From Ruegeria sp. 6PALISEP08 (GTDB lineage: Bacteria > Pseudomonadota > Alphaproteobacteria > Rhodobacterales > Rhodobacteraceae), in the NCBI RefSeq assembly GCF_001238295.1, contig NZ_LGXZ01000008.1:1-64000 (forward strand): DNA of 64,000 bases, given 5' to 3'. Shown here in pieces: positions 40,370 to 56,273 of this stretch; the first letter of the stretch is position 1; each line of letters opens with the position of its first letter. The translations under genes and the position numbers were made by a program. Below the pieces are notes generated by a model. The model did not search any database. It was not told the DNA's origin and saw nothing but the letters and a program-made list of their open reading frames with translations.

Positions 40370-40412
40370 GACCCCGGCAGGATTCGAACCTGCAACCTGC
40401 CCCTTAGGAGGG
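40370..40412. repeat. attL: 43-bp direct repeat of the tRNA-Arg 3' part
   Basis: The 43 bases are identical to 56201-56243, within the intact tRNA-Arg gene, covering the T arm and anticodon-arm 3' side. Beyond it the sequence changes (AACCG instead of GGCTG), so this is only a tRNA fragment. It marks the far end of the island, next to its integrase. Confidence 0.93.
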
Positions 40413-40426
40413 AACCGTTCATAGCG

Positions 40427-41521
40427 CTATTCCTTCTTTGATTTCTTGCTCTTGGGTGTTTGTACAGTGTCCGGTTGTACGTGGTTTGTACGAAAGCGGG
40501 CCCTGACATCTGCCTCATCCGTCTCCGCATGGGCGTAAATGCGCATGGGCAAATTGGGGTCAGACCAGCGCCCAGCTTTGGCCGCTGTGACCGGATCGAC
40601 TCCTTGGCGCACGACCAATTCAGTGAAGAATCCGTGCCTTCCGGCTGGGTGCGCTGACAGGTACGGGATGCCCGCGCTTTTGCAGATCGTTTTCCAGCGC
40701 GTGTTGTAGCCTGTGGAGCTTCCGTAACCAAAGACACGGGGCTTCATGAACTTGCCGGTCTTGCGGTTCTTGGGACGCTTGGGCGGCAAAGCCAGGAGTT
40801 CGTCCATCATCTGAGGCGACACCGTGATCCAGCTTTCTGGGTGGCCCTTTTGCGCCTTTACCCTGACCTTGTTCTCGGCGGGTCGCAGATCATCAGGCTC
40901 AATCGAAACAGCCTGGTCGATCCGTGCCGCCGTCTCGAACATGAACCGGACCAAGGCGGCGTTGTACGGATCGGCGGCCCGACAGAAGGCCTCGATCCAT
41001 TCCTTGTCAGCAGGCGTACGTTCAACACGACTCAGCTTTCCTCGCCGCTTGTCCTGGGCGATTCGCTCGAACTTGTCGTAAGGCTTCACCCTGATCAGCG
41101 GTGTCCCCTCTAATTCGTGTGCGTTGTTGATCACGGCACTCGCTGGCGTCACGATCTCGCGCCACCAAGTGTCCGTCGACGCCTTCGGCTTCAGCTTCGG
41201 CCCCAGCCCCTTCAAGAGCGCCCCAGAAATCGCACCCAAAGGCATGTCACCGATCTCTTGAACAATCGGGATGAGTTGCTTGGCGGTCTTCGGGGATGCG
41301 TTGTAGATCATGATTGCATCCGAAAACGTCTTGCTCGGCTCGTCGCCCACCACATGGCGACGTATCTGCAACTCAGTTTCGCGGTTTATCCAGTCCCGTG
41401 CGCCCGCTTCTGTAGATGCCTTAGTGCTTCGCCGGTATGGGCCTGCGATTGGCCTGCCGTTGTACTCGACCCAGCCCTTTGCCCAGTAGACGCGGCCCCT
41501 TTTGTAGATGTGGAGCGGCAT
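40427..41521 (-). CDS. int: Tyrosine integrase of the tRNA-Arg island
   Basis: The 364-residue recombinase shows the catalytic set Arg200 (ETAARIDQAVS), His291 and Arg295 (SAHPAGRHGF), Trp319 (GRWSDPN) and the nucleophile Tyr329 (MRIYAHA). All are present, so it is probably active. It lies 15 bases inside attL. Its N terminus is overlapped by 136 bases by the xis-like gene in another frame. Confidence 0.93.
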   Translation of the reverse strand: MPLHIYKRGRVYWAKGWVEYNGRPIAGPYRRSTKASTEAGARDWINRETELQIRRHVVGDEPSKTFSDAIMIYNASPKTAKQLIPIVQEIGDMPLGAISGALLKGLGPKLKPKASTDTWWREIVTPASAVINNAHELEGTPLIRVKPYDKFERIAQDKRRGKLSRVERTPADKEWIEAFCRAADPYNAALVRFMFETAARIDQAVSIEPDDLRPAENKVRVKAQKGHPESWITVSPQMMDELLALPPKRPKNRKTGKFMKPRVFGYGSSTGYNTRWKTICKSAGIPYLSAHPAGRHGFFTELVVRQGVDPVTAAKAGRWSDPNLPMRIYAHAETDEADVRARFRTNHVQPDTVQTPKSKKSKKE

Positions 41522-41733
41522 GACTGGCCTCCTTCAAATATCGTGTCGATCTGCGCTGGCGTGATCAGCATCGTCCGCCCTAGACGGTAGAATGCGCCCG
41601 TGTCATTCGCCCTCTCACGCAAAGTGCGCTCGGAGATATCAATCCCCATGCCAGCCATGACCTCGACCCATTGCGCCGGTGTTTTACCAAGTCCCAGGAT
41701 TTGCGAGCTGTCTGAGTTGTCGGTCTCTGCCAT
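41386..41733 (-). CDS. Small helix-turn-helix, excisionase-like protein
   Basis: This 115-residue frame has an N-terminal DNA-binding-like core: LGKTPAQWVEVMAGMGIDIS, then ERTLRERANDTGAFYRLGRTML. The last 45 residues come from an alternate frame of the integrase gene and are low-complexity. The order, just upstream of int and overlapping it, suits an Xis or a regulator that directs excision. Confidence 0.6.
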   Translation of the reverse strand: MAETDNSDSSQILGLGKTPAQWVEVMAGMGIDISERTLRERANDTGAFYRLGRTMLITPAQIDTIFEGGQSCRSTSTKGAASTGQRAGSSTTAGQSQAHTGEALRHLQKRAHGTG

Positions 41734-41889
41734 TTCAGTCGTCCTTGTCCGCTAGGGTTGAACTCAGGGATACGCATAGAATCGCTTGTTTAGTACCTTC
41801 TGACGTGTTCAGATGGGTTCAGTCGGGAATATGCGTCATTTTGTGCGATGTTTATACAAAATTGCGCTGCCGTCAATTGGGAAGTCTGA
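41734..41889. promoter_or_regulatory. Divergent control region between xis/int and Xre gene
   Basis: This AT-rich 156-bp region is divergent, so it must hold both promoters. It includes a near-repeat of short TT-rich blocks at 41825-41870. No operator was identified. Confidence 0.4.
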
Positions 41890-42312
41890 ATGGCACATGA
41901 AGATGCTGATTTGTTTGCAGAGATTGGTGCACGCCTAGCCATCTCACGTAGCGAAATCGGCGTTTCGCAGGCCGCGATGGCGGAGGCGATTGGCGTCTCG
42001 CATCGGGCCTATCACAGCTACGAAAAAGGCAAACGCGGCATCCCTGTCGAAGCATTGGTCAAGATGCACAGCCGATATGAGGTTGACGTTTCCTGGTTGC
42101 TGCTCGGTACGAATTCAATCCGCGCCGGTCATGACTTCGAAGCACTGAAAAGGATCGAGACCTCGCTCGATCAGTACCTGGTAGGCGCTGGCATTGGCAT
42201 CAAAAGTGAGAAGCGCGGGGCTATCGTTGCGCGCTGGTATGAGTCCCATGTCAAGGGGCGGGAAGTAACGGATGATGACGTTCACACTTGGGTCGAATTC
42301 GTAAGGGAATAG
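41890..42312 (+). CDS. Xre-family regulator
   Basis: The 140-residue protein has a Cro/CI-type helix-turn-helix at residues 18-65 (SEIGVSQAAMAEAIGVSHRAYHSYEKG). The C-terminal half is a helical region. Divergent placement against xis/int suggests it governs the switch between integration and excision. The next gene starts 4 bases after its stop. Confidence 0.85.
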   Translation: MAHEDADLFAEIGARLAISRSEIGVSQAAMAEAIGVSHRAYHSYEKGKRGIPVEALVKMHSRYEVDVSWLLLGTNSIRAGHDFEALKRIETSLDQYLVGAGIGIKSEKRGAIVARWYESHVKGREVTDDDVHTWVEFVRE

Positions 42313-42316
42313 TCAC

Positions 42317-42628
42317 GTGAAGAAACCAAGCAAAAACTGGCTGATGTTAAAGCGCGCAACGTTAGAACGCGTCCAGCGTGCCGCCATCGACCCGCTGCAA
42401 CCCCTCTACACTTCGTTTGCCATTCTGAGTGCCATTTATCTGGGTGGGGTAGGCCGTTTTACCTTCTTCTCCGTGCGTGACGGCGATTACTCTTGGTTTG
42501 ATGCTGCGCAGGTTGTTTCGACGGCCTTGTCTGGATTACTGCTGCCAGTACTTGCGGGGTCAGTCGTCATTTTGTGTTTCGTTTCGAAGAGGATCGAGCA
42601 ACTTCTCCGCGAGTGTGACCGCCCCTAA
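42317..42628 (+). CDS. 103-residue membrane protein
   Basis: The protein has two hydrophobic stretches (about residues 34-50 and 72-93) and charged ends. It follows the Xre gene by four bases, so the two may form one transcript. No known family is recognised. Confidence 0.5.
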   Translation: MKKPSKNWLMLKRATLERVQRAAIDPLQPLYTSFAILSAIYLGGVGRFTFFSVRDGDYSWFDAAQVVSTALSGLLLPVLAGSVVILCFVSKRIEQLLRECDRP

Positions 42629-42774
42629 TTTCACTAGTTTGTCCATTGAACCGCATCGCCTCCGCCAGTCTTCATTTCTTGGGCGGAAGATGGTCGGATT
42701 TGGTGGTCGGCCCTGTTGCACGATAGTTTTGGGCTCGTCCCGCTCCCTTTTAGTAAGGAAAGGTTAAACCGCTC

Positions 42775-43191
42775 GTGGTCGATTTCGTTTCACAAGAAAA
42801 ACGCAGCAAAATCATGCGAGGAGTAAAGAGCGTCGACACAAAGCCCGAAATGCTTGTGCGGCGCGCCTTGCACCGGCTGGGCTACCGTTTTCGCCTACAC
42901 AGGAAAGACCTTCCCGGAAGGCCAGACATTGTTTTACCGCGACATAATCTGGTTGTGTTTGTGCATGGATGCTTCTGGCATCAGCACACGGGCTGCAAGG
43001 ATGGCCGCATACCTAGTAGCAACACGGAGTTTTGGGTGCGAAAGTTCTCAGCGAACCAAGCGCGGGACGCTAAGCACATTGCGGCGCTTAAGGAACTTGG
43101 CTGGCGAGTAGAGGTGATTTGGGAGTGTCAGGCTCGCGAACCGGATAGCCTAAGCGCACGGCTTACCGAATTGTTTGCGCGCAATGATTGA
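42775..43191 (+). CDS. vsr: Very-short-patch repair endonuclease (Vsr)
   Basis: The 138-residue, PD-(D/E)XK-type nuclease nicks next to T:G mismatches left when 5-methylcytosine is deaminated. The family marks SVDTKPEMLVRRALHRLGYRFRLH, LPGRPDIVLPRHNLVVFVHGCFW and the Cys-His zinc site (HGCFWHQHTGC) are all present. The GTG start at 42775 has only a weak ribosome site. It precedes the cytosine methyltransferase gene by 76 bases, the usual Vsr-Dcm partnership. Confidence 0.93.
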   Translation: MVDFVSQEKRSKIMRGVKSVDTKPEMLVRRALHRLGYRFRLHRKDLPGRPDIVLPRHNLVVFVHGCFWHQHTGCKDGRIPSSNTEFWVRKFSANQARDAKHIAALKELGWRVEVIWECQAREPDSLSARLTELFARND

Positions 43192-43267
43192 ATGTGATTC
43201 AATGCCTTGATCCTGGGTAGTTTCCCCAGGATTTTGGCTCCGAGAATTTGGATCCTCATGGTCGGCA

Positions 43268-44701
43268 ATGGAGGCCAAGGAATTGGTGCAAAGGAAGTAC
43301 ATCGATCTTTTCGCAGGTTGTGGTGGGCTGTCATTGGGCCTCGAAAAGGCCGGGTTTGATCTCGCCCTCGCGGTAGAGAAATCCGATATGGCTGCTGAGA
43401 CTTTCTTCCACAATTTTGTGGAGCGGATTTCGAACCCGGAAGATTGGAAACAGTTCTCAGCGTCCTTCACATCAGTTCACGAACAAGCCGCGAAAAAGCT
43501 GGTGGTCAAGGAACTCGCGGAAGTCTTGAAAAATAGGCCTCTACTTGAATCCCTGAGGTCCCAAGATATTGATCTCATAGCCGGTGGGCCTCCGTGCCAA
43601 GGCTTTTCTCTAGCAGGCAGACGCAACCCCGAGGACATTCGAAACCAACTTCCATGGCAATTCCTTGAGCTAGTGGAGTCCGTTGAACCAAAGGCTGTCT
43701 TGATCGAAAACGTATCGGGAATGAGCCAGGATTTCCGCAAACATGGAAGATCGTCCCCTTTCAATGATTTGCGCATCGCTTTAACCGAAACCGGCCCAGG
43801 TTACATCGTCCAACCCATGCACCTCAATGCGATGCATTTTGGTGTCCCGCAACATCGCCCGAGAGTTTTCATGGTGGGGGTTCGCGCCGATATTGCCAGA
43901 CGGCTATCCCTGAGTGTTTCACAGGATACTTGGCGTTCTGAGTATGACCATACTCCAAGCTCCCGCTTTTCCCACCGTCCGTCGCTTGCCCCAACGGCCA
44001 CCCATTTTGGCGACGCCATCCTGACTGTTTCCACGGCCATTTCAGATTTGGGTAGGCGCGGCTACAACCGTAAGAGGAGCGTGTCAGACTTCGCTCACGA
44101 GATGCGAAGTGACACAAGATGGGGTGTTTGCGAATACGAAAACGGTTCGCTCAATAGAAGCCTAGAAAACCATGTATTGAGGCGTCATGCGCCTCATATC
44201 GAAGCACGGTTCCGGGTGTATCAGTTTTTTCGAGATCAAGGGGTTCACCCACGGGTCATTGCTGTCCCCAAATCTGAAGAGCTTACGGACGACGGCAAGC
44301 GTATCTCGATAATGGCGGCACTCGAACACGCCAGGTTCCCAGCCAAGGCGCCGGACGGCACTGAAATCGCCCAGGACATCTTGGAATTGACTGATCTCGT
44401 CATGGGACTTGGCACCAAGAAGCATAGCCAACGCCCCTTGAAGTGGGATGCGCCCAGCCCAACAGTAGTTAGCTTGCCGGATGATTATGTTCACCCGCAA
44501 GAGCCCCGCACATTGACAGTTCGCGAACTTGCTCGGTTTCAATCTTTTCCTGACGCTTTTGAGTTCAGGGCTAAGGAAACAACCGGAAGCATGCGACGAA
44601 GGTTTGAGGTTCCCCAATATACGCAGGTGGGGAATGCGGTGCCACCAAAGCTGGCCGAAGCTGTTGGGCGTCACATACGGACAATCCTTTCTTTTGCCTA
44701 G
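43268..44701 (+). CDS. DNA (cytosine-5) methyltransferase
   Basis: The 477-residue enzyme has motif I FAGCGGLSLGL (residues 15-25), motif IV GGPPCQGFSLAGRRN with the catalytic Cys, motif VI ENVSG, motif VIII QHRPR and the C-terminal QVGNAVPPKLAEA. Its likely role is to protect host DNA at the target of the nuclease set next to it. Vsr pairing suggests a CCWGG-like target. Target recognition is carried by a long variable segment (about residues 235-400). Confidence 0.93.
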   Translation: MEAKELVQRKYIDLFAGCGGLSLGLEKAGFDLALAVEKSDMAAETFFHNFVERISNPEDWKQFSASFTSVHEQAAKKLVVKELAEVLKNRPLLESLRSQDIDLIAGGPPCQGFSLAGRRNPEDIRNQLPWQFLELVESVEPKAVLIENVSGMSQDFRKHGRSSPFNDLRIALTETGPGYIVQPMHLNAMHFGVPQHRPRVFMVGVRADIARRLSLSVSQDTWRSEYDHTPSSRFSHRPSLAPTATHFGDAILTVSTAISDLGRRGYNRKRSVSDFAHEMRSDTRWGVCEYENGSLNRSLENHVLRRHAPHIEARFRVYQFFRDQGVHPRVIAVPKSEELTDDGKRISIMAALEHARFPAKAPDGTEIAQDILELTDLVMGLGTKKHSQRPLKWDAPSPTVVSLPDDYVHPQEPRTLTVRELARFQSFPDAFEFRAKETTGSMRRRFEVPQYTQVGNAVPPKLAEAVGRHIRTILSFA

Positions 44702-44917
44702 TAAGGCAGGAAGTGCGCGGGACTGCCAGGTACACGCCAGCTGGCATCCAGCTTCCAGCCAAGCCGCAACTACCAATTTGCCGAACCCGGTCGTGGACGT
44801 GGCCTCATGTAGTGACACGGGCGATATCATGATCCAACCGGATCAGTGAACCGCGAAACTGACCGTTCTGGTAAGTGGGTAAGGCGCTTAAGCTTCAATT
44901 ACAGGTCAGGTGAGCAT

Positions 44918-45673
44918 TTACAGTCGCAGAAGGTCGAAACTTGGCGTGGTCGGGAACAGCGTTTCGACGTTTCTCGGCTGGATCTTGAACAGTGGCCCCT
45001 TTTCTACCGTACGGCCTCCGACAGCGCTGATGAGATGATCTACAGTTATGGTTCCCATCTCAAGCAAACGAGGTAGTTCCTTGGCACGCGGACGACCGGT
45101 AAATGTCACGTACCTAAAGTGGAAATACTCTTCGCCGTCACGCTTGCTAGGGATTGCAACAATCCAGGCTGAGGCAGGTTGGGTCTTGTCCAACCGCTCC
45201 TCAAGTTCGGCTAGTTGCCATGCCACGACGTCGCTCGTCCTTCCCTCGACCGACCTGTGCCTCTCAACCAGAAGCCCTCGCTCCCAGTCTACGGCCAGGT
45301 ACAGCCCTTGGCCGTTGGGCTGCTTTGCGCTGACGGTGCAATTCAGGCGGCGTTCGTCTCCCGAACCATATCCGAAGGCGTCAAGCAACTCCCGAGAGCT
45401 CTTCAGCGCGCTGACTTTCCAATCCGGGACTTTTGCGAACAAGTTAACGCGATTAATATCCTTGGCTTTGCTTCCTCTTCTCGCTGTCAAAACAATGCCT
45501 TTGAACTGGGCTTTTTTTGATGAAGTCATTGGGATGCCAAGGTGGGCAAGAAGGGTTTTCCCGACCGCAGTGTCTCCGCGCCCGATGGCCGGTAGTGGTC
45601 CCTGATGGGACAGTTCTTTCAAGACGCTCAAAAGCTCTTCTGAGTGTTCGGGGAGGCCATCAGTTATAGGCAT
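44918..45673 (-). CDS. MvaI/BcnI-family protein with catalytic residues replaced
   Basis: The 251-residue protein matches the family over most of its length: GDTAVGKTLLAHLGIP, NLFAKVPDW, SSRELLDAFGYG, NCTVSAKQPNGQGLYLAVDW. MvaI-type enzymes have a D-x4-E-x-K active site. At the same place here the sequence is KKAQFKGIVLTARRG, with Gln56, Val61 and Thr63 instead of Asp, Glu and Lys. It is probably unable to cut but may still bind its CC-x-GG-type site. Its start codon overlaps the stop of the helicase gene. Confidence 0.75.
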   Translation of the reverse strand: MPITDGLPEHSEELLSVLKELSHQGPLPAIGRGDTAVGKTLLAHLGIPMTSSKKAQFKGIVLTARRGSKAKDINRVNLFAKVPDWKVSALKSSRELLDAFGYGSGDERRLNCTVSAKQPNGQGLYLAVDWERGLLVERHRSVEGRTSDVVAWQLAELEERLDKTQPASAWIVAIPSKRDGEEYFHFRYVTFTGRPRAKELPRLLEMGTITVDHLISAVGGRTVEKGPLFKIQPRNVETLFPTTPSFDLLRL

Positions 45674-47340
45674 CAGAACGCTTCACCCCCAGGGAACCGA
45701 AGGCGAGCGCCCTCGTCTGAATCTTCAATGTTCGCGACATCGGCCAAGTATTTCCTGAAGAATGCGGCAGGCTGGTCGTTTTCGAATTTCACAATAGCGC
45801 CATCCCTGTAACGGACGACTTCGACTCCCGCCGCGTTCTCTTCCGCTGACTGGTTCAATGAAAGCCCTGCAGCAACTCGGCGGATATCTGCAACAAAATC
45901 GAGAACCAGAACCTTGTCCTTTTTTGTGCTAACTCGGAGACCACGACCGAGTTGTTGGAGGAATATCCTCCGACTGTGGGTAACCCGCATGAACGCCACG
46001 AGATTTACGTCCGGAACATCTATGCCTTCGTTTAGCATTTCAATGGAAATAAGCATGTCGATCTCACCCATTCGAAAGGCGCTTAGGTTCTTAAAGCGCT
46101 GCTCACGGGGGAGCCCGCTGTGCATCAATGCAGCTTTGACGCCTTCAGCCGCGAACAGTGGTCGCAACCTTTCCGCGTGGTCGATGGAGCGACAGAATGC
46201 CAAAGCTCGCGGGCCATCCATCTGGTTCATCTTGGAGCAAATCGCCTGAACCATCGCCAAATCCCGCTCGGGAACAAGTAGTCGTTGATTGAGATCTTTT
46301 ATGGTCAATCCATTTATTGAGGCTCGCGCAATCTCGTCCCAATCAATCCCATCTGTCAGCATGCGATAGTCGACTTCTGCGAGATAGCCCTGTTGCATAC
46401 CGTCCACGATATCCATCGTGTAAGCAGGCTCACCAAAAAGGTCAGTGACATCCCGATCGTCTCCACGCCAAGGAGTGGCGGTGAGTCCAACCAAGAAATT
46501 CGGATCAAGATGATCGATAAGGTTGCTGAAGCTGTCGGAAGGAGCGTGGTGGGCCTCATCAACAATCACAAGCCCGAATCTTTCGGACAACTCGTCCCCG
46601 CGTTCAATTGCAGCGTTTAGGGACTGCCAAGTCGCAAAGACTACCCCTCCGGGGTGTGCTGGCCGCTCACCGTCCGTCCACAAATGCGTCGCGCACTCTT
46701 TGGGAAGTTGGGACCAACTTGAAAACTCCAGTTGGCGAACAAGGTCGGTCATATGGGCAAGTACGAGGACCTCTTGTTCTGGATTACGATTAAATTCATT
46801 CGCAATGAGCTGGTTTGCAACGAGGGATTTGCCTAGGCCAGTGGCCATTAAGACAAGTGCACGTTGCTTTCCCTGACCACGATGAGCCTCAACAGCATCA
46901 ATTGCCTCTGCCTGATATTCTCGAGGGGTTTTGTGATCGAGAGAGGCAGAAGGCAACTTGTCATAGTATTGTAAGAGGTGGCCGCCATTCCATGCGCGGA
47001 CGTCAACGCCGGCATCCTTCTGTGCAGCCAGAAACTTGTAAGCGTTGGGATAGAAATCTTGGTTTGATGCAACGATAGCTATCTGTGCTTCGTATTTCCC
47101 TAGCGCCCAGACCGCTTCCCGAGCTCCGTTGTCGTCCACCCCACCATTCGACCGAAATTTCGCCTGCAATACCCAGCGCTTCCCACCGGAAACACCCACT
47201 ACATCCGCGCCGTGGTCGCCAGCACCACCTACAAGGGCCACATCCTTGAAGCCTGCGTGCTTTACTAAGCGCGCAACCATTCGTTCGAAAGCTTGCCATG
47301 GGCCGTAGGCTAGCCGTTCCTCGCTGACGAAACCCGGCAT
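45673..47340 (-). CDS. Mrr-type nuclease fused to a superfamily 2 helicase
   Basis: In this 555-residue protein, residues 1-110 are Mrr-like, with GGAGDHGADVVGV (Asp46) and LQAK (Gln59, Lys61), an intact PD-(D/E)XK site. Residues 135-480 form a SF2 helicase: Walker A MATGLGKS (165-172), DEAHH (261-265), LTATPWR (286-292) and QQLGRGLR (462-469). A short C-terminal extension follows. The fold order is that of restriction translocases. The start is directly after the stop of the ATPase gene, and the stop overlaps the MvaI-like gene. Confidence 0.9.
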   Translation of the reverse strand: MPGFVSEERLAYGPWQAFERMVARLVKHAGFKDVALVGGAGDHGADVVGVSGGKRWVLQAKFRSNGGVDDNGAREAVWALGKYEAQIAIVASNQDFYPNAYKFLAAQKDAGVDVRAWNGGHLLQYYDKLPSASLDHKTPREYQAEAIDAVEAHRGQGKQRALVLMATGLGKSLVANQLIANEFNRNPEQEVLVLAHMTDLVRQLEFSSWSQLPKECATHLWTDGERPAHPGGVVFATWQSLNAAIERGDELSERFGLVIVDEAHHAPSDSFSNLIDHLDPNFLVGLTATPWRGDDRDVTDLFGEPAYTMDIVDGMQQGYLAEVDYRMLTDGIDWDEIARASINGLTIKDLNQRLLVPERDLAMVQAICSKMNQMDGPRALAFCRSIDHAERLRPLFAAEGVKAALMHSGLPREQRFKNLSAFRMGEIDMLISIEMLNEGIDVPDVNLVAFMRVTHSRRIFLQQLGRGLRVSTKKDKVLVLDFVADIRRVAAGLSLNQSAEENAAGVEVVRYRDGAIVKFENDQPAAFFRKYLADVANIEDSDEGARLRFPGGEAF

Positions 47341-49665
47341 TTATTTCGCCCAAGACTCAAGCAATCGTAGAGAAGCCAGGGCACGTGTGAATCTAAGTCG
47401 CCAGTCTCGATCCTTGTTGATCGCTGAGGCGCCGTCTTCCACGAGCCACGAGGCATCCTTTAAGCATTCGACGACTTGGGACAACGTTTGTCTCCTTTGG
47501 TCTGTCGAAAGTGGCTCATAGGGGCGGTCGAAGAAGTCGCCATCCATTACGATAGAAGGCCAAATCTCCACGAGGTCTTGTAAATAGTCTTCCGAAGCGA
47601 AACGGGCAAATTCTCCATTGCGAATGCACTCATCTGCTTGCGCATTGGTCAAAGATTCCGAGCGAAATGCCACACGTCGAATGTGATCGAGCTCATGTGA
47701 CACAATGTCTTCTAAATCGATGGGTGCGACGTTGGGAAGGTTTTCGTCAAAATGCCGACGGAGTTCCCCAAGAAGCGCAGAAGCCGACTTAGCTGCCTGG
47801 GAAATGTCTCCCGAATTTGAGGGGAAGTACTTGTCTCTCAAAAGCCTGCCCACATACGACACTGGGTAGTCCCGAATGGACTGCGAAGCGACCGTTATGG
47901 CTTGCTGGGCAACATCTACGATCAAATAGTCTGAGGGCTGAAGGACATTATCTTCAAAATACGGTGAATCGCCATTGTAGTCGAATTGAAGATCGAAACC
48001 TTTCGGGGTCACCCTATAGGGGTGCCCACCCAAGTCTGTCTTGTGGCGCAATGCCGTCACCTTAATCAGAATATCGCCCGGTAGCTCTGGGACCTCGTAC
48101 GTTCTTGAGAGCGCCGGATCGGGGTCTGGCAGCTGAATTTCTTCTGCGCTGTCGTTGTGAGAAGTACCGGCGTCGTCATCAACATCACCTGTCGGCTCTT
48201 CGTCATTTCCGGAGCTTGCGGTTTCGTCACCAATTGGGAAGTCCCCAGCGAAGTCGTCGGCGCCGCTACTACCGCCACGCTTGGCTCTTTCAGCTTGAAG
48301 AACCAACTCGTACCATTTGTCATCATCTTGAAAGTCGGGATCGCCCGCGTAGAATTTGTCGACGTATTCCTTCACCAGACCAGCGTTCACCCCGGTTCCA
48401 TCACTTGTCCCTGGGACAAGAGACGACAATCCCGCAGTTCCTTTTCGATAGCCGGTAAACAGACGCGCCATCGGACTGGTATTCTGCGCAAGCCCTAATC
48501 GTTTTGCGATTTGTGGCTGCAGTGGTGAATTCCCGCGCACTAGATTCACCACTTTCTTCCATTCCGGGTCCAGTTTATCGAAGGAATCTTTTTGGTGGGA
48601 AACCCTCACAAAATCGATTTCCAACTCACCGACAATCCTGCCGCCCCAATGTATGGCATCAATGGGGTACTCCAAGATTGTATCGCCGTCTTCGCCACTA
48701 AACGTGAAGAACGATTTATCTAACTCCTGAATCACGCGTCCGTTTCGGATGAGGTCGATGCCAAAGGTTTCCTTGTCGAAGAACCTTTGGATACCTAACC
48801 AACCTGTTAGCTTCCTCGAGCGTTTTACGATGTTTTCGCGGTGGCCACATGCGGGGCAATCATCTTCCGCATCTGAAAGCCAGACCCAGCATGTGGAACA
48901 AAACTTTCTTGTGTCCAACGTTTCGTCGATCTCAATCCGAGCAGGTACGTTGCCAAAAGCCTTGGTTTCGACAGAACGCTTGGCATCCCAAACACAGTGT
49001 TTAGTTGGTGTTACGGCGTCCCCAGAATAGTTGATTTCGATCTCCAGGCGCCGCATTACCCGCCCATAAATCTTGCCAAGTTTCTCACGCGTACGTCGTT
49101 TTCCAACCCCCTTGATGAGGGGCATGACTCGATCAACTTCTAACCGGGTAATCTTGATCTCTGTACCATGAGCCTGGTCCTCAAGTTCTTTGTTAGTCTT
49201 CGCCCGTAGCTGCACAGGGGCATTGAAAGTCTTTTGTTGTTCCAGATGATCGAAATCGATCACAAGCCCTGTCCAGTCAGGGTCATCTGCGCGGGTGGTC
49301 CAAATCTCTGTTTTTCGCCCCATCCGCGCCGTGGAAATGTTGAAGCCCATACCGAAGAGGCCCATCTTCTCCACAGGGTCATTTCCCGAGTAACCCGCAC
49401 GAACTGCGTCTTGTAGAGTCGCAATAGACATGCCGCTGCCATTATCCCTTACGATCAACTCACCACGACCGGCTTTCAGCTCCTTCTCGCCAGGAACATC
49501 CACCCAGATTTTTGGTTCGACAGCAGGTACTCCATCGCGAGCTTGATCAATGAATGCATCGATGGAGTTGTCGATGAGCTCAGCAAGGCACTGCCAAGGG
49601 GCGAAATCGATCTGCCCTAACATCCGGAGAACGCGTGGAGAAGGAGTGATGTCCACTGTTGTCAT
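47341..49665 (-). CDS. MORC-like GHKL ATPase with zinc ribbon
   Basis: The 774-residue protein starts at the ATG at 49665, behind GGAGG. The GHKL ATP site is AELIDNSIDA (residues 28-37), DNGSGM (74-79) and MGLFGMGFN (101-109), followed by an S5-like fold. A four-cysteine ribbon lies at residues 256-273 (Cys256, 259, 270, 273). An acidic linker (about 480-540) leads to a C-terminal domain with SHELDHIRR, whose histidine pair could bind metal. MORC/MutL-type ATPases are known near restriction systems. It is the first gene of the ATPase-helicase-MvaI operon. Confidence 0.85.
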   Translation of the reverse strand: MTTVDITPSPRVLRMLGQIDFAPWQCLAELIDNSIDAFIDQARDGVPAVEPKIWVDVPGEKELKAGRGELIVRDNGSGMSIATLQDAVRAGYSGNDPVEKMGLFGMGFNISTARMGRKTEIWTTRADDPDWTGLVIDFDHLEQQKTFNAPVQLRAKTNKELEDQAHGTEIKITRLEVDRVMPLIKGVGKRRTREKLGKIYGRVMRRLEIEINYSGDAVTPTKHCVWDAKRSVETKAFGNVPARIEIDETLDTRKFCSTCWVWLSDAEDDCPACGHRENIVKRSRKLTGWLGIQRFFDKETFGIDLIRNGRVIQELDKSFFTFSGEDGDTILEYPIDAIHWGGRIVGELEIDFVRVSHQKDSFDKLDPEWKKVVNLVRGNSPLQPQIAKRLGLAQNTSPMARLFTGYRKGTAGLSSLVPGTSDGTGVNAGLVKEYVDKFYAGDPDFQDDDKWYELVLQAERAKRGGSSGADDFAGDFPIGDETASSGNDEEPTGDVDDDAGTSHNDSAEEIQLPDPDPALSRTYEVPELPGDILIKVTALRHKTDLGGHPYRVTPKGFDLQFDYNGDSPYFEDNVLQPSDYLIVDVAQQAITVASQSIRDYPVSYVGRLLRDKYFPSNSGDISQAAKSASALLGELRRHFDENLPNVAPIDLEDIVSHELDHIRRVAFRSESLTNAQADECIRNGEFARFASEDYLQDLVEIWPSIVMDGDFFDRPYEPLSTDQRRQTLSQVVECLKDASWLVEDGASAINKDRDWRLRFTRALASLRLLESWAK

Positions 49666-49830
49666 TGATACGCCTCCGTCTGATGGCAACCACTAGAAAG
49701 GGAAATTGCTGCGAGCTTGGCTAGTGCAATTCCCTTTTTGCGGGAGCTTCACGCATTTTCGTGTCGCGGGCAAGTAGGCGCCTACGTTAAGGCAAACTTT
49801 GAATTGGCGATTGGCAGTACTGTTTTTTAC

Positions 49831-49990
49831 CTAATTGGCTATTTCATGCGCAAACTCGACGAGCGGCCCGAACTCAAACCCATCAGCCGCACGCAGCGCC
49901 GCGATGTAGCGAGCGCGGTAGTCGCTGTCAGCCGTCAGTGTTTCGCCGCCTGACCAGTCTAGGAGTATTTCCGGATCATTCGCCGCCGAT
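49831..49990 (-). pseudogene. Remnant of a second fic gene, 3' end
   Basis: On the minus strand this encodes about 50 residues, ANDPEILLDWSGGETLTADS and onwards, ending FEFGPLVEFAHEIAN and a stop at 49831. They match the end of the intact Fic protein gene at 51633. The 91-bp core (49874-49964) differs from 51676-51766 at only four positions. No start is present, so it is a fragment. Confidence 0.85.
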
Positions 49991-49998
49991 CCGTCGTT

Positions 49999-51432
49999 CT
50001 ACTTCTTGCTTGCAGATTTCTTTGGAGTAGCGTCGATCACAACGATGTCTGAAGCACGTTCTCCGGCAAGAAGCTGGACTTTCCTGATTTCGTTAATCGT
50101 ATCCAACTTGTCACCTAGCTTCCCATAGTCGATCACAACGAAAATTCCAAAGAACGTTTCGGATGCCTCTTTGTAGTGCTCGAGCTGAGTCTCATAGCCA
50201 TGTCTGACAGTTCCTGAGTCTCTTTTTAGTTCTACAAGCACCCTTGCTTCGTAGCCCTTCGAGAACTTAAAATCGACTGGCCCGCCTCCCATATTGGTCT
50301 CTGGAGACATGTCGATGTTGTTTGCCTTGCAGAACGCATCCGCAATCGCTTGGAACATTAGCTGAGCCGCTCGTTCTTTTTTGGGTTTCCCGTCTACCCA
50401 AAGCTCGCGCCAAAGATCGCCGACTTCCACGTGCTGTTTAAAGAGAGCAATTGCTTCATGGACAACTGCCCTGATTGCCTCTGGTCCGGTCGAAAGATCA
50501 ACTTTGGATGGTGCAGATAGCGCATCAGGATCAGCGAGCAACAATTGTCGATACCTGTAATAACCCAAGGCATCTTCTATTGGATCGTAGTTGCTTGCAT
50601 TATCCTTCACCGACGCCAGGAAATGATTGAACGCATCAGCGGAAGACAGTGCTGCACCCCGCAGTGCGTGCTTCGTGTCAGTTACAGTCGGCTCTGTGAT
50701 GCCGGCTAGCAGCTGGCTAACCCTATTCCTAATCTCAGCATTTTTCATCGCAGCTTCGCGAACATCTGACCAATCATTTGCAATCGGGAGGTCCCTCACA
50801 ATGTCTTTGGGTACCAACAAAAACGGCTTTGAGGTACCTTTGCTGTCCACGAAGTGGGGCAAGCCGATGTCTTGCCTCTCTTCAGAGATCGGTGTTGTTG
50901 CCAAAGCATGTGAGTTGCAGAATTCAGAGGTAATCGTGGCCAGCTGAAGGAAGACGACTCGTGTCGTGAAGTCGCTGATCGTGTCAGGTCCGACGCCTTC
51001 CTCGAAGAAGCCCATCAAAGAAATCATCTCTGGGTCATTCGCACCCAATGTTATGATTTCCTTCGTCGTTCGCAGGATCATGGATTGGATTTCTTCCGGC
51101 CGCGAACTCCCAGAACGCGAAGCGCCCCCGTATCCCAAACCATTCTCCGAGGGCTCCTCTAAATTCAGCAGTCGTCTGGCAGCCAACCAAGCTACATCAT
51201 CCTCGGCCTGAGAAATGGTTAGGAGGCGGACGATTTTGGAAAAATGATCGCGAAATACTGCAATGGCATCCTTCGCGATCAACGGATGCCCAGACTTCTC
51301 CAACAGAACGGGATCGATAAACAACTCAAGATCAACGTTTAGGAACGGGTCGATTAAACCAGCTTTATCGATTTCTGCGGGGTTCACCCCAAAATAACTT
51401 GAAAAGAGAATAGGATTAACAATGCGTGCCAA
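49999..51432 (-). CDS. Predicted PD-(D/E)XK nuclease of unknown family
   Basis: The 477-residue protein is not recognised as a named family. The C-terminal part has a PD-(D/E)XK arrangement: GGGPVDFKFS (Asp387), then RVLVELKRDSG (Glu401, Lys403), then YETQLEHYK (Gln416), spaced as in nuclease cores. Upstream is a long helical region. The gene sits between the fic remnant and the intact fic gene, beside a defence block, so a role in phage or plasmid resistance is likely but inferred. It is not linked in one transcript with the ATPase operon. Confidence 0.65.
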   Translation of the reverse strand: MARIVNPILFSSYFGVNPAEIDKAGLIDPFLNVDLELFIDPVLLEKSGHPLIAKDAIAVFRDHFSKIVRLLTISQAEDDVAWLAARRLLNLEEPSENGLGYGGASRSGSSRPEEIQSMILRTTKEIITLGANDPEMISLMGFFEEGVGPDTISDFTTRVVFLQLATITSEFCNSHALATTPISEERQDIGLPHFVDSKGTSKPFLLVPKDIVRDLPIANDWSDVREAAMKNAEIRNRVSQLLAGITEPTVTDTKHALRGAALSSADAFNHFLASVKDNASNYDPIEDALGYYRYRQLLLADPDALSAPSKVDLSTGPEAIRAVVHEAIALFKQHVEVGDLWRELWVDGKPKKERAAQLMFQAIADAFCKANNIDMSPETNMGGGPVDFKFSKGYEARVLVELKRDSGTVRHGYETQLEHYKEASETFFGIFVVIDYGKLGDKLDTINEIRKVQLLAGERASDIVVIDATPKKSASKK

Positions 51433-51632
51433 CTCTGAAGACCTTTCTGCTCCCCGATAACCAACTTCTCTTCATAGTTGTAGCCTGCTTCTCTCCTACA
51501 GTCACGTTGGCAACCTCGACAATCTGACGATCAACGGCGACGACAACCAGTGTCCCGGGATTCCGTCAATGTCCACTTTGGCGCTGAGGCGTGTTGGGAC
51601 TGCTATTGCAGCGAAGGTTAGCTTCCCGCCGT

Positions 51633-52238
51633 CTATTCGGAGATCGCTGTCACGAACTCAACTAACGACCCAAATTCAAACCCATCAGCCGCACGCAGTG
51701 CCGCGATGTAGCGAGCGCGGTAGTCGCTGTCAGCCGTCAATGTTCCGCCGCCTGACCAGTCGAGGAAAACGTCAGGGTCAATCGTGGCCAGATACTCATC
51801 CGCCATGATCCGTGCCCAGCGTCCGTTGCCGTTGGCGAAGGGGTGCACCCAGACCAGTTTATGATGGAAGCGTGCGGTGGCTTCCAGCGGGTCGTAGGTG
51901 CCGTTCTCGCGCCAGTATCGGGCGTCATCTAGGCAGGTGCGCATTTCGGTTGAGATATGCCAGACAGGCACGCCGATGTTCTTCTCTGTTTGGCGATAGA
52001 CACCCGCCCAGTCCCAGACCTGCCCGAACAATCGCTTGTGGACCTCGCGGGCTGCATCGTCGGTCAGGATGTCGAAGGACTTGGGCCGCCGGTCCAACCA
52101 GGTCAGCCCCTCGATGATGTTCTCGCCCTCCAGCTCATTCAACTCGCCGCGCGTGGTAATGTGCTTGGCCTTGAGACCAAGCAACTCGTCGGGCGTGAGA
52201 GGGGTCGCGCCGGTGGGTTCGTGCAGTTCCAGAGTCAC
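51633..52238 (-). CDS. Fic-domain protein, mobile mystery protein B
   Basis: The 201-residue protein has the Fic core HPFANGNGRWAR (residues 132-143). The usual Asp or Glu of the Fic motif is Asn, as in the mobile-mystery B group. Fic proteins transfer nucleotide groups; the effect of this family is unknown. It overlaps the Xre gene mobile-mystery A by four bases, which is its usual partner. A duplicate of its 3' end lies at 49831-49990. Confidence 0.88.
   Translation of the reverse strand: MTLELHEPTGATPLTPDELLGLKAKHITTRGELNELEGENIIEGLTWLDRRPKSFDILTDDAAREVHKRLFGQVWDWAGVYRQTEKNIGVPVWHISTEMRTCLDDARYWRENGTYDPLEATARFHHKLVWVHPFANGNGRWARIMADEYLATIDPDVFLDWSGGGTLTADSDYRARYIAALRAADGFEFGSLVEFVTAISE
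51676..51766. repeat. Direct repeat copy of the fic 3' end (second copy at 49874-49964)
   Basis: The 91-bp segment matches 49874-49964 at 87 of 91 positions, with an offset of 1802 bp. The two copies bracket the predicted nuclease gene. This arrangement suggests that a gene was inserted at a duplicated fic end or that two fic copies recombined. Confidence 0.85.
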
Positions 52239-52696
52239 TTCCAGAAATCCCTCGGCATCTCACGCGCGATTTCGCCTGCCAGTTCCTCGATCATCTCTTC
52301 CTGGCCGCGCAAACCTTCGGTCTGCTCTTCCAAGGCCATATGCGCGCGGGTGCGTTGAATGATGCGTTTGGCCTTCTTGCGAGCCTGGGCCATGATGATT
52401 TCCTCGACAGGTCCTTCGCGCGGGATGATCGCGTAGACCAGCTTGCCACCCATGGCCTCAGCCATCTTGTCCAGCTGGTTCAGGGAGATTGCTCCAGCCT
52501 TTTCGTTCTGGATGGAGCTGTAGACGCTGTTGCGGGACACGCCCAACCGCTCGGCCAACGCGGGTGCGCTCATGCCGATTGCTTCCTGGAAAGTCGCAAT
52601 CCAACCACCCAGTGGCTTCGCGAAGGCTTGGGCCATCCGGACAGCTTGATTGATCTTGCTTTCAGCCTGCCGCTGTTTTGTACGTGAGACGGACAT
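52235..52696 (-). CDS. Xre-family protein, mobile mystery protein A
   Basis: The 153-residue protein starts at the ATG at 52696; the frame extension to 52807 has no ribosome site. A helix-turn-helix is clear in MSAPALAERLGVSRNSVYSS (about residues 42-61). The mobile-mystery A/B pair is found on mobile elements, and A is believed to repress the pair. The region upstream (52697-52826) has repeated TTTTGTAAT blocks that could be its operator. Confidence 0.88.
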   Translation of the reverse strand: MSVSRTKQRQAESKINQAVRMAQAFAKPLGGWIATFQEAIGMSAPALAERLGVSRNSVYSSIQNEKAGAISLNQLDKMAEAMGGKLVYAIIPREGPVEEIIMAQARKKAKRIIQRTRAHMALEEQTEGLRGQEEMIEELAGEIAREMPRDFWK

Positions 52697-52826
52697 TTGC
52701 CAACCTGTAGCTTTGCATCTATGACTGTTTTGTAATACAAAGATATGGCAGTATTTTGTAATTTGCAATACCATAGCATTGCAAACTGGTGAAATTCGCC
52801 ACGCCACAGCTTGGCATACCTGCCCA
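52697..52826. promoter_or_regulatory. Promoter region of the Xre-Fic pair with TTTTGTAAT repeats
   Basis: Two copies of TTTTGTAAT (around 52729 and 52755) and palindromic stretches such as TTGTAATACAAA occur in this AT-rich region. They are candidate operators for the Xre protein. Confidence 0.45.
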
Positions 52827-53144
52827 TCAAGCTTTACCGATCACGTTCTCGACGGCGCTTGCCGGTGCTAGCACATTCTCCCCTACCTTAAGTTCCTTCG
52901 CATCCACGCCAAGCTCCTGGATCAAATACCCATCGCGCCGCTTGCGAATGTTCCGCATATAGCCGTTCCCTCCGGCGTCAACAAAAAGGCAGCGGATGTT
53001 CTGGTAGTCTCCCCAGACACCCGCAACGGCAATGAGCGGAACGCCTTCGGGCAGGCGGCCCACCTTTTCAAAGTCGCGATAGTCGATGCTATAGTCGCGG
53101 GCCTGATGGTAGCTCATGGTGAAGTGGTCGTGTGCAAAACTCAT
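52827..53144 (-). CDS. 105-residue protein of unknown function
   Basis: Starting at the ATG at 53144, behind GGAAGGAAA, gives 105 residues. The central stretch GVWGDYQNIRCLFVDAGG, then YMRNIRKRRDGYLIQELG, looks like a small beta-rich fold. It is downstream of the relaxase on the same strand, 16 bases after it ends. No known family is recognised. Confidence 0.6.
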   Translation of the reverse strand: MSFAHDHFTMSYHQARDYSIDYRDFEKVGRLPEGVPLIAVAGVWGDYQNIRCLFVDAGGNGYMRNIRKRRDGYLIQELGVDAKELKVGENVLAPASAVENVIGKA

Positions 53145-53160
53145 CGGATTTCCTTCCTCG

Positions 53161-54723: not shown

Positions 54724-55190
54724 CGCCGCGCCTCGTCGAGGAGCTGGGCAAGCTGGCGTTCGATCACCAACAGGCGGCGCGCAACCGTCAGGCTGTCGAG
54801 GTCGGTGCAACCCACCAGCATCGCCCGGTTCAGCCAACGCGCGATCTGGTTGAGGTTGCCGCCGATACGCCCCACGGCAAGCACCAGCGCCGGATCGACG
54901 CGCGGCACGGGCTTCCGACGGCGCGCCTCGGTCAGGCTGAGCGCCTCACGCAGGAGCGTTGCGGCGGGCAGGCCTGCGGCCTCGGCCTTGGCGCGCAGCT
55001 CGGCCTTCTCGGCCGCCGTGCATCGGAAGACGAAGGTCTCCGTCAGTGGCTCCTTTGCGCGGGCTTTTCCCGCGCCGGTGGGGTTCGAAGGGGAGGCTTG
55101 CCGCCCCTCGCAAGGTCCCGGGTCATCCGCGCCAGCGTATGACATGGGTCGCCTTGCTGTTTGCGCTTCGGTCGGATCGGTGGCGCTCAT
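54717..55190 (-). CDS. mobC: MobC-type mobilisation protein
   Basis: This 157-residue protein is a relaxosome accessory with a DNA-binding start (LTETFVFRCTAAEKAELRAKAEAAG) and the MobC box VGRIGGNLNQIARWLNRAM. MobC proteins help open DNA at oriT. It starts at 55190, overlapping the upstream gene by four bases, and its end overlaps the relaxase GTG start by seven. Confidence 0.88.
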   Translation of the reverse strand: MSATDPTEAQTARRPMSYAGADDPGPCEGRQASPSNPTGAGKARAKEPLTETFVFRCTAAEKAELRAKAEAAGLPAATLLREALSLTEARRRKPVPRVDPALVLAVGRIGGNLNQIARWLNRAMLVGCTDLDSLTVARRLLVIERQLAQLLDEARRC

Positions 55191-56041
55191 GATCCGAGGC
55201 CCGCCGCCTGTATTTGCGCCTGTGTCACCAGCTTCGCGGCCAGCAATGCGTCGACCTGGCCCGGGGAAATGTGACGGCACAGCGGGTGGCGGTCCGTGAC
55301 CCAGCCAGCCAAGCCTGCCAGCATCTCGGCCTGTTTCGCCTTCGTTTCTTCGCGGCTCTTGGCGATGTCCTCGACATAGGCCCGCCACCGCCCGGACTTG
55401 AACCAGTTGTCGGAGAAACAGACCTTCGACCGGGTGAACCCGGCGCTCTCGGTTGCGTAGGCCTTCACAGCCTGCAACAGTTCCTCGACCTCTGTCCCAT
55501 CATCCAAGGCCTCCCTGATCCGCCTGAGACAGTCCGCCTTCCCCCGCACCCGATCCGGTGGATAGGCCGCTAACACCTTCTCAGCCTCTTCATCCTCCGC
55601 CACCACGCGCTCGCGCGTAGGAGGTTTCAGGGTGGTTTTAGGATGGTTTGGGGGCCGCTGTGGCCCCGGTACCCCGGCCACTGTGGCCCCCGTTCCGGGT
55701 CCAGTCTGGACGGGGTCCACTGTGGCCCCCGTCTCGATATCGGGCTCGGCGGTCAGTTCCAGCGCCTCAACCATCGCCAGGTCGATCCGGTACACGACCG
55801 TGAAACCGTTCTTGCACCCGCGCGCGCCGGTCTCGACCAGGATGCCTTCCTTCAGGAAGTCCCGGATCGTCCGTTTCACCGTGCTCTCCCCCAGCTCGGT
55901 GTGCCGCTGGATCGTTCCCTTGGAGCACCAGATACCCGACCCATCGTCGCTCGCCTTGTCGGCCAGGAACATGATGATCTGCTTACGCGTGGCGCTTCCG
56001 AATTTCCGCTCGGCACACGCGTTTGCCACCCGCCAGCTCAT
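55187..56041 (-). CDS. Helix-turn-helix protein, plasmid replication/initiation type
   Basis: This 284-residue protein has an N-terminal winged helix-turn-helix (about residues 15-85; WCSKGTIQRHTELGESTVKRTIRDFLKEG) as in helix-turn-helix_36 proteins of plasmids. The C-terminal half is charged. The linker is Pro/Thr-rich. It starts the minus-strand mob block. It may control or start element replication; this is inferred. Confidence 0.65.
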   Translation of the reverse strand: MSWRVANACAERKFGSATRKQIIMFLADKASDDGSGIWCSKGTIQRHTELGESTVKRTIRDFLKEGILVETGARGCKNGFTVVYRIDLAMVEALELTAEPDIETGATVDPVQTGPGTGATVAGVPGPQRPPNHPKTTLKPPTRERVVAEDEEAEKVLAAYPPDRVRGKADCLRRIREALDDGTEVEELLQAVKAYATESAGFTRSKVCFSDNWFKSGRWRAYVEDIAKSREETKAKQAEMLAGLAGWVTDRHPLCRHISPGQVDALLAAKLVTQAQIQAAGLGS

Positions 56042-56196
56042 CGGACCGCCCCAAAAGGCGCACGGACGTGCGAATTTTGTACAGGATTTGTACGAGAATT
56101 CCGCCGTTTCGGCAGAATTCGATGCGAAAGCTCACGGGACTTTCTGCAAGCTTCTGCACAACGCCCTGTAAATAAGCCATATTTTTCAGGTGTTTT

Positions 56197-56273
56197 TGGT
56201 GACCCCGGCAGGATTCGAACCTGCAACCTGCCCCTTAGGAGGGGGCTGCTCTATCCAGTTGAGCCACGGGGCC
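56197..56273 (-). tRNA. tRNA-Arg (anticodon CCT), island integration site
   Basis: The minus strand gives a 77-nt tRNA, GGCCCCGTGGCTCAACTGGA to an encoded CCA. The anticodon loop is CTCCTAA with anticodon CCT. Its 3' half (56201-56243) is one copy of the island repeat, so the tRNA is intact after integration. Confidence 0.95.
56201..56243. repeat. attR: 43-bp direct repeat in tRNA-Arg
   Basis: Identical to attL at 40370-40412. Left of it the sequence is island DNA, right of it is the remaining tRNA gene and then the chromosome. Integration here kept the tRNA whole by restoring its 3' end. Confidence 0.93.

Follow-up and report, generated by a model that had tools for sequence, protein, structure and literature searches.

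Genes of the locus and their mobile island

The window, that is, the whole stretch of 64,000 nucleotides that was analyzed, carries five genes between positions 42775 and 49665. Profile searches and a reading of the gene junctions showed that these are vsr and dcm, followed by an abutting operon encoding a MORC ATPase, an Mrr-helicase, and an MvaI-like protein. vsr and dcm lie on the plus strand and the operon on the minus strand, and the two units converge. The vsr gene (42775–43191, plus strand, GTG start) encodes a very-short-patch-repair endonuclease of 138 amino acids (TIGR00632, 147 bits against a cut-off of 98; PF03852), and dcm (43268–44701, plus strand) encodes a C5-cytosine methyltransferase (MTase) of 477 amino acids (PF00145, 192 bits). 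Within the operon, the helicase ATG follows the MORC stop codon TAA immediately, with 0 bases between them, and the helicase TGA has 1 base in common with the ATG of the MvaI-like gene. The MORC ATG (49665) is preceded by GGAGG, which ends 7 bases upstream. The original prediction had named the same five genes, described the last three as one operon with touching or overlapping stops and starts, and viewed the whole as a composite restriction-modification (RM) locus. The junctions confirmed the operon, and all five genes were found by profile, with family scores above the cut-offs (in addition to TIGR00632, 156 against 25 bits for PF15515 and 45 against 25 for HATPase_c_3).

The five genes are carried by a 15.8-kb mobile island in tRNA-Arg. 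Its left end is a 43-bp direct repeat (40370–40412, plus strand) that copies the 3' part of tRNA-Arg, its right end is the other 43-bp repeat (56201–56243, plus strand) within tRNA-Arg(cct) (56197–56273), and the island encodes a tyrosine integrase (40427–41521, minus strand; PF00589, 36 bits against a cut-off of 27). The gene upstream of the operon (49999–51432), which encodes 477 amino acids, had no matches at E 1e-4 in the 72 loci scanned and none in locus L122. Thus, it lies outside the conserved unit, and its candidacy as a fourth subunit was ruled out.

The first gene of the operon (47341–49665, minus strand) encodes a GHKL ATPase of the MORC type that contains a Cys4 insert resembling a zinc ribbon, and we propose that this ATPase acts as an ATP-driven clamp. 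It matched three PDB sequences at E up to 1, all of them MORC3 or MORC4 chains (E 0.021–0.14). Its GHKL N box, ELIDNSID (49558–49581, minus strand), contains E30, D33, N34, and D37 (numbering from 49668), and these four residues were found in all 88 aligned rows. The same was true of D75, G79, G103, G106, G108, and G168, and T169 was present in 87 of the 88. The pattern that defines MORC proteins in the S5 domain is GhXhhpXXRhl, as given in the text of PMC2292703, and the motif GIDLIRNGRVI at residues 303–313 (48730–48762, minus strand) matches it by eye. The Cys4 cluster CSTC...CPAC (48847–48900, minus strand) is a putative zinc site, of which C257, C260, and C274 were invariant in an alignment of four rows.

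The second gene (45673–47340, minus strand) encodes a protein of 555 amino acids, the proposed translocase and cutter, in which an N-terminal Mrr nuclease domain is joined to an SF2 helicase of the ResIII/RadD/HsdR-like kind (Mrr_cat 54 bits, ResIII 114, Helicase_C 70). Its best NCBIfam matches were RadD and EcoAI R, XPB/rad25 being weaker. The Mrr catalytic motif D46...Q59-x-K61 (47158–47205, minus strand) is present, and its three residues are retained in 82, 83, and 83 of 84 aligned helicases, respectively, suggesting that the nuclease is intact, as had been predicted. The helicase motifs are likewise intact, with residues that hardly vary across the alignment.

The MvaI-like protein and its relatives

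The third gene of the operon (44918–45673, minus strand) encodes a protein of 251 amino acids with the MvaI/BcnI fold (PF15515, E 2e-45), our proposed target reader. The PD-(D/E)xK catalytic residues of the MvaI/BcnI endonucleases are absent from it: positions 42, 56, 61, and 63 are L, Q, V, and T, where live relatives have E, D, E, and K. This degenerate active-site stretch, from L42 to T63, occupies 45485–45550 on the minus strand (coordinates confirmed by translation). Judged from these residues, the original description of the protein as dead appears to be right. An AF2 model of the protein (pLDDT 89.7) gave 2oaa as its best Foldseek match (E 1.1e-15, TM 0.81), indicating that the predicted MvaI/BcnI fold is retained despite the catalytic loss. 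Compared with the MvaI/BcnI endonucleases (PF15515; 2oaa, 2odh), the window protein has the same fold and core length, but its four catalytic residues are replaced and, unlike them, it is encoded with MORC and an Mrr-helicase.

E42, D56, E61, and K63 were lost in all three MvaI-like proteins encoded in MORC operons (window included) and were present in every one of 35 PF15515 proteins encoded elsewhere than in such operons, 14 of them distant and 21 closely related (18 at 95% identity). One search for PF15515 gave 22 genomes, of which the short fragments L120 and L121 were set aside. Apart from the catalytic residues, only 5 of 48 other conserved columns were lost in all three MORC-operon proteins (Fisher p 4.7e-4, a guide only because the rows are related). 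The three share a derived stretch, TLL...G[IM]V[LI]TARR, and formed one clade (support 85/80, unstarred) in a tree built without L135 and L136. Because there are only three such operons and their MvaI-like proteins form one clade, the catalytic loss is to be taken as a single event that was then maintained. Within the stretches covered, none of the 35 live genes had a pair of MORC and Mrr-helicase in its vicinity, the stretches of L133–L136 ending at contig ends. One live gene, L106 (region L212), adjoins a 618-amino-acid frame with a weak match of 22 bits to the MORC profile and without an Mrr-helicase; its MvaI-family protein is intact.

The genome of the window gave one PF15515 match, the MvaI-like gene itself, and no live partner MvaI was found elsewhere in that genome. 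The MvaI-like protein had no matches among phage records, and in a class-wide sample of 385 genomes only the window's own genome matched.

Among the relatives found, the closest to the window Dcm is the MTase of L123, a live RM system of MvaI type (65% identity). Between the window and L122, identity was 69% for MORC, 77% for the helicase, and 65% for the MvaI-like protein, but 39% for Dcm. The MTases of the three MvaI-type operons fell into two separate subclades, each among MTases of live MvaI-type RM systems, and their grouping as one clade was rejected (AU p 1.3e-60). Both MTase trees carry long-branch warnings; one omits L138–L141 and L149, and the other consists of 27 chosen rows. The MTase of L015, an operon with an unrelated third gene, lay in the same clade, indicating that the MTase clade is not bound to the MvaI-like reader alone.

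Related loci and the gene after the helicase

We compared the window with 91 related loci (L011–L082, L122, L137–L150, and L183–L186, the window itself being excluded), which include near-duplicates such as L137–L141, L012/L013, and L148/L149. L122 was found first through PF15515 and again through MORC, and the other 90 through MORC. The genome scan for relatives covered the best 80 of 91 relatives, and its 11 weakest loci (L083–L093, mostly archaeal) were set aside from the comparison. MORC and the Mrr-helicase were adjacent in 86 of the 91 related loci; in the other five, the adjacency was not visible because of contig ends (L018, L074, and L144), short helicase frames (L075), or the lack of a helicase after MORC (L183). 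A search from the helicase side covered 390 genomes of the order, with up to three candidates scored in each. A full-length Mrr-helicase was found in six of them, one being the genome of the window, and MORC adjoins it in all six. Given this adjacency in 86 of 91 loci and family scores far above the cut-offs, the arrangement is not due to chance.

Partner genes were scored at any position within the stretch covered, the length of which varies between loci: a C5 MTase was present in 87 of the 91 loci, Vsr in 67, and an HhH-GPD glycosylase in 7. In six loci (L051, L055, L058, L063, L064, and L065) the order is compact, MTase, MORC, helicase, a small third gene, and Vsr, with nothing between. In L014 and L122, a glycosylase gene adjoins dcm, and Vsr was not found there.

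The gene after the helicase varies. It belongs to an unnamed family of about 173–240 amino acids in 64 loci, is MvaI-like in three operons (window included), and comes from other families elsewhere. As a rule, therefore, the MvaI-like gene is absent, suggesting that it is a plug-in of a variable slot rather than a fixed component. The original prediction had expected neither the ATPase nor the MvaI-like gene to be missing from homologues as a rule; this holds for the ATPase, which stands beside all six full-length helicases found in the 390 genomes, and fails for the MvaI-like gene. The 173–240-amino-acid protein gave a confident model (pLDDT 90.5), with no PDB match to its fold below E 0.027. 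The idea that this family is a remote MvaI was rejected, as a profile comparison gave no similarity to the MvaI group; any reader role common to both is therefore hypothetical. A comparison with the 'GSGSSRNQPET' family was also negative. The third gene of L015 had no Pfam match at E 1 and no sensible PDB match. The slot is not always dead: in L076 the third gene is MspI-like and retains PKTD and K, with S in place of the MspI N, residues that we take to be catalytic in MspI.

Known systems and a proposed mechanism

Operons that combine MORC with an SF2 helicase-nuclease, Dcm, and Vsr were reported in 2008 (Iyer, Abhiman, and Aravind; PMC2292703), and the window system is therefore of a known kind, in agreement with the original statement that MORC ATPases near restriction systems are known. 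The text of that paper describes, for the first type of MORC RM operon, a GHKL and S5 ATPase with the MORC motif, a nearby cytosine MTase, Vsr, and an SF2 helicase that carries a restriction-fold nuclease domain, as in the window, and calls the helicase of that type Rad25-like; it also proposes DNA looping by the MORC ATPase. The words MvaI, BcnI, Mrr, and inactive are absent from its main text, one legend having unspecified 'Type II Endonuclease' genes, and its text mentions neither a dead type II reader nor variation in the third slot nor exchange of MTases. The new element relative to the known MORC operons is the third subunit. Among the matches listed from the open-licence literature, no title or abstract opening mentioned a dead MvaI-family reader or the exact operon.

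Type I RM systems have a separate specificity subunit and a translocating R subunit. The window resembles them in dividing the work among a reader, an ATP-driven motor-nuclease, and a methyltransferase, and differs in its C5-cytosine MTase, added GHKL ATPase, and Mrr-type nuclease; neither HsdS nor an N6-adenine HsdM was found among the ten window proteins scanned. In CglI and NgoAVII, as described in the text of PMC4267653, the R-protein is a putative endonuclease, whereas the type II-fold protein is dead here. The paraMORC loci with HEF_HK or Response_reg_2 are similar in having a GHKL ATPase near a C5-MTase, Vsr, and, at some loci, MvaI_BcnI domains, but their description in PMC8011034 has no Mrr-helicase, and the window proteins scanned matched neither of the two domains. 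The word MORC is absent from the available text of the Caulobacter ScmA/VsrA paper (PMC12907096). With Hma of PADLOC, as outlined in PMC8565338, the window shares a helicase, an m5C methyltransferase, and an ATPase. However, no HmaA, HmaB, or HmaC model occurred among the PADLOC matches listed (the two ATPase rows, the best 25 of 33 helicase rows, and the best 25 of 63 Dcm rows), and these rows lend no support to the Hma membership once suggested. The label MZA was rejected, as the MutL-like MzaB matched only at E 0.0068 in PADLOC and reached 14.7 bits in NCBIfam, where the cut-off is 850.

We consider it probable that the locus encodes an ATP-dependent RM machine in which target recognition falls to a dead type II enzyme, cutting to the Mrr-helicase, and clamping to MORC. 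Dcm would mark the host sites, and Vsr would repair the T:G mismatches that arise from deaminated 5mC at Dcm sites. The MvaI/BcnI-fold protein, having lost catalysis, may bind the Dcm site in its unmethylated state, and the bound reader would load or trigger the MORC ATPase, which, judging from MORC and MutL relatives and the 2008 proposal, may close on DNA as an ATP-driven clamp or loop-former. The SF2 helicase would then translocate and cut through its Mrr domain. MORC and the Mrr-helicase would thus be a conserved engine and the third gene an interchangeable specificity subunit, derived from MvaI here and from other families elsewhere. At the level of sequence, a sensor role of the MvaI-like protein is consistent with the selective disappearance of its catalytic residues and with the kinship of the MTases to those of MvaI-type systems.

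Other readings deserve consideration. The MvaI-like protein might be a site-binding regulator or shield that represses the operon or covers sites, with MORC or the helicase finding the target alone. A dead site-binding protein is capable of either role, and the presence of unrelated families in the slot elsewhere would allow it a function other than recognition. But the MvaI-like and helicase genes overlap, by that 1 base in the window and by 4 in L014, as expected of a stoichiometric subunit, and the MTases of the three operons, though from two separate subclades, are both times MvaI-type, so we regard this reading as unlikely. The absence of the catalytic residues is also what would be expected of a restriction enzyme in decay that no longer serves a function. 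Against this, all three genes are open frames at 52–65% identity from two bacterial families, with the derived motif in common, few other conserved columns differ in all three, and the predicted fold is complete; of all the readings, decay has the smallest chance.

The main function of the locus might instead be the repair of mismatches left by deaminated 5mC, not restriction, with MORC resembling MutL, the helicase resembling UvrD, and Vsr nicking. The text of PMC2292703 draws this analogy, and the frequency of Vsr, with the occasional glycosylase, agrees with it. It is not obvious, however, why such repair would require a nuclease-helicase of the Mrr type and a DNA reader with a type II fold. 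In addition, the window vsr gene lies outside the operon, and in L014 and L122 a glycosylase gene stands next to dcm, with no Vsr found, so we regard this reading as very unlikely. Hardly better or worse are the prospects of a type IV-like activity, in which the Mrr-helicase restricts foreign modified DNA and Dcm and Vsr are a separate neighbor: the best PADLOC match of the helicase is mREase_IV, a type IV methyl-directed enzyme, through its helicase part, but a C5 MTase accompanies nearly all related loci, and methyl-dependent cutting next to a cognate MTase would harm the host unless the targets differ.

Returning to the RM machine with a dead reader, we tentatively raise the possibility of a modular class, in which a fixed engine of MORC clamp and Mrr-helicase can be fitted with different specificity subunits. 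Some of these would be domesticated type II enzymes with a discarded active site, paired with an MTase taken from the type II system that donated them. The dead-endonuclease subunit could then be a functional counterpart of HsdS, and the 173–240-amino-acid protein another such subunit. If the MvaI-fold protein is a dead reader, type II enzymes would be reused as recognition parts, and its position beside a nuclease with intact catalytic residues may show how defenses get rebuilt from used parts. The link between bacterial MORC and restriction dates from 2008, and the text of PMC2292703 does not give the component that chooses the site. Structures with DNA exist for BcnI and MvaI (2odi, 2oaa), so that the target, methylation sensitivity, and MORC recruitment are approachable through the MvaI-fold reader. 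The mechanism, if true, would also be relevant to the recruitment of eukaryotic MORCs to DNA.

The MORC/Mrr-helicase pair and its partners

The original prediction named five genes, and all five had strong family matches. On the forward strand lie vsr (42775-43191) and dcm (43268-44701), convergent with a reverse-strand operon encoding a MORC-type ATPase (49665-47341), an Mrr-helicase (47340-45673) and an MvaI-like protein (45673-44918). The touching or overlapping stops and starts claimed for this operon were present in the window sequence, as an abutting TAA-ATG between the MORC and helicase genes and a TGATG overlap between the helicase and MvaI-like genes. By its GHKL motifs and an S5 sequence, GIDLIRNGRVI, matching the pattern GhXhhpXXRhl, the ATPase qualifies as a MORC protein as defined by Iyer et al. 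2008 (PMC2292703, main text). The 477-aa gene upstream of MORC (49999-51432, reverse strand) is not conserved with the operon; its product matches PADLOC PDC-M36A weakly (32 bits), and near its C-terminus a VELK stretch resembles a PD-(D/E)xK nuclease.

A scan of genomes with a MORC alignment gave the best 80 of 91 relatives, the 11 weakest loci of which were set aside, and an IMG/VR search with MORC gave 14 loci. In the 91 loci (L-numbers) compared here, with near-duplicates included and the window excluded, MORC adjoined an Mrr-helicase in 86; anywhere in the examined stretch, 87 had a C5 methyltransferase, 67 Vsr, 13 an Eco29kI-like gene and 7 an HhH-GPD glycosylase. A helicase-side search of the order found the full-length Mrr-helicase in 6 of 390 genomes, the window's own included, adjoining MORC in 6/6; MORC was present in 7, the seventh having no helicase after it. 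Mrr residues D46/Q59/K61, the helicase motifs and the GHKL residues were almost invariant across the alignments, so that the nuclease conserved in these systems is the Mrr domain. The Eco29kI-like GIY-YIG genes lie in L012, L013, L020, L025, L029, L031, L033, L036, L054, L138-L140 and L143; that of L013, the one scanned, scored slightly below the PF09517 cut-off, with motifs intact by eye.

For prokaryotes, the main text of PMC2292703 describes MORC operons that also encode cytosine methylases, Vsr and SF2 helicases carrying a fused restriction-fold nuclease. MORC ATPases near restriction systems are indeed known from comparative genomics, and the window system belongs to this kind. The words MvaI, BcnI and Mrr are absent from that main text. 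The kind is known already, and what seems new is the dead MvaI-fold subunit. MvaI_BcnI and Vsr domains are reported in PMC8011034 near a GHKL/Response_reg_2 pair, but that pair differs from MORC/Mrr-helicase. The suggested membership in Hma, a trio of helicase, methylase and ATPase (PMC8565338), found no support among the PADLOC matches listed for the window proteins (best 25 of 33 for the helicase, best 25 of 63 for Dcm, both rows for the ATPase), none of which was to an Hma model.

A variable third slot and a dead MvaI-like protein

The gene order was conserved for the MORC/Mrr-helicase pair but not for the third slot, directly after the helicase gene, which among the 91 loci is MvaI-like in only L014 (Agrobacterium) and L122 (same bacterial family as the window). 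A family of about 173-240 aa fills it in 64/91, including L051, L055, L058 and L063-L065, where the whole unit consists of methyltransferase, MORC, helicase, this small gene and Vsr. G46, L49 and K63 of this family were invariant in 38 rows; there was no match within cut-offs in NCBIfam (two members) or Pfam (one member), nor a Foldseek match of its confident predicted model to solved folds. Another family, in which a stretch HVDS..GSGSSRNQPET is strongly conserved and which gave no Pfam match above cut-off (two members scanned), fills the slot in 8/91 (L066, L069, L070, L072, L077, L080, L148, L149), and other loci have pairs or singles of further families, among them the MspI-type protein of L076. 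The third-slot proteins of L076 (14250-15509) and L052 (6629-7567) apparently have a common N-terminal domain (weak, 21% identity) and different C-terminal domains, that of L076 being of the MspI family; the N-terminal one is possibly a docking domain with an exchangeable C-terminal part. A PIN_8-domain gene (198 bits) follows the third slot at L012 5190-6284, and several other loci have genes of about 360-380 aa at this place.

In the MvaI proteins of the three operons, the catalytic residues E42, D56, E61 and K63 are replaced by L, Q/T, V and T. They were kept in 21/21 near relatives and in 14/14 distant PF15515 proteins; replacement in 3/3 against retention in 35/35 agrees with the predicted loss of activity. 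Among 48 other conserved columns 5 were lost, compared with the catalytic four (Fisher p 4.7e-4, kinship ignored). The predicted model (pLDDT 89.7) matched the MvaI-DNA complex 2oaa (E 1.1e-15, TM 0.81). These data are strong sequence evidence that the MvaI-fold subunit of the MORC/Mrr-helicase operon is selectively dead. In a tree without the catalytic columns the three formed one clade (support 85/80, unstarred), suggesting that catalysis was lost in a single event and the loss then maintained.

No MORC-Mrr-helicase pair was found near the 35 live PF15515 genes in the stretches examined. The near live relatives (plasmids, L123) are of 393-482 aa, each beside a dcm; the live system L096 has an unrelated DEAD/DEAH helicase gene two genes before its dcm, on the upstream side. 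L126 (7197-10004) has a tandem pair of MvaI-family genes with intact motifs beside one dcm. One of the 35 live genes, that of L106, is intact and adjoins a GHKL frame with a weak MORC-profile match but no Mrr-helicase; this region (L212 5688-10774, genome G768) also holds vsr and a methyltransferase gene and is possibly a helicase-less paraMORC-type system.

Probable methyltransferase exchange and a proposed mechanism

Between the window and L122 the MORC, helicase and MvaI proteins were 65-77% identical, but Dcm only 39%. The window Dcm was 65% identical to the methyltransferase of L123, a live MvaI-type system with no MORC nearby, and the Dcm of L096 shared 70% identity with that of L122 and 64% with that of L014. 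Grouping the three operon methyltransferases together was rejected (AU p 1.3e-60). The methyltransferases linked to live and to dead MvaI proteins formed, together with the one from L015, a single supported clade of 20 rows, separate from those of the 173-240 aa type loci; both methyltransferase trees gave long-branch warnings. On the simplest account, a methyltransferase of matching specificity took the place of the earlier one at least once; this would be understandable if target choice still lay with the dead protein. L015, whose third gene is unrelated, has a methyltransferase inside the MvaI-linked clade, and this third gene could encode another reader for the site that the MvaI-like protein would recognise. 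The kinships are good indirect evidence that the MvaI-fold subunit is matched in specificity to its methyltransferase.

Beside dcm, L014 (7752-8465), L122 (5155-5856) and L015 (14977-15642) have an HhH-GPD (MutY/EndoIII-like) glycosylase gene; the window has vsr there. Examples of such glycosylases with a T:G-repair role are known, and by analogy these may act likewise.

Beyond the observed gene content, conservation, dead active site and methyltransferase kinship, we propose that the dead MvaI-like reader would bind unmethylated sites, MORC would act as a clamp or DNA loop-former, the helicase would translocate along DNA and the Mrr domain would cut. MvaI and BcnI sites are CCWGG and CCSGG, which may not apply to the window system. 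DNA looping by the MORC ATPase is a proposal made in the main text of PMC2292703.

The integrative island

The 3' part of tRNA-Arg(cct) recurs as a 43-bp exact direct repeat (40370-40412 and 56201-56243), and an integrase gene lies just inside the left copy. In genome G036, the only near-empty one noted, the flank matches were 20 bp apart, as in an empty site; other genomes of the genus had them at varied distances and showed varied inserts at the site. Because of the repeats, the integrase and the near-empty site, we concluded that the system is cargo of a 15.8-kb integrative island (40370-56243). The island is probably mobilisable; NikA/MobC matches and weak relaxase matches lie near its right end. 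It also carries a gene (51633-52238, reverse strand) for a Fic-domain 'mobile mystery protein B' (TIGR02613, 228 bits), adjoined by a weakly HTH-like gene.
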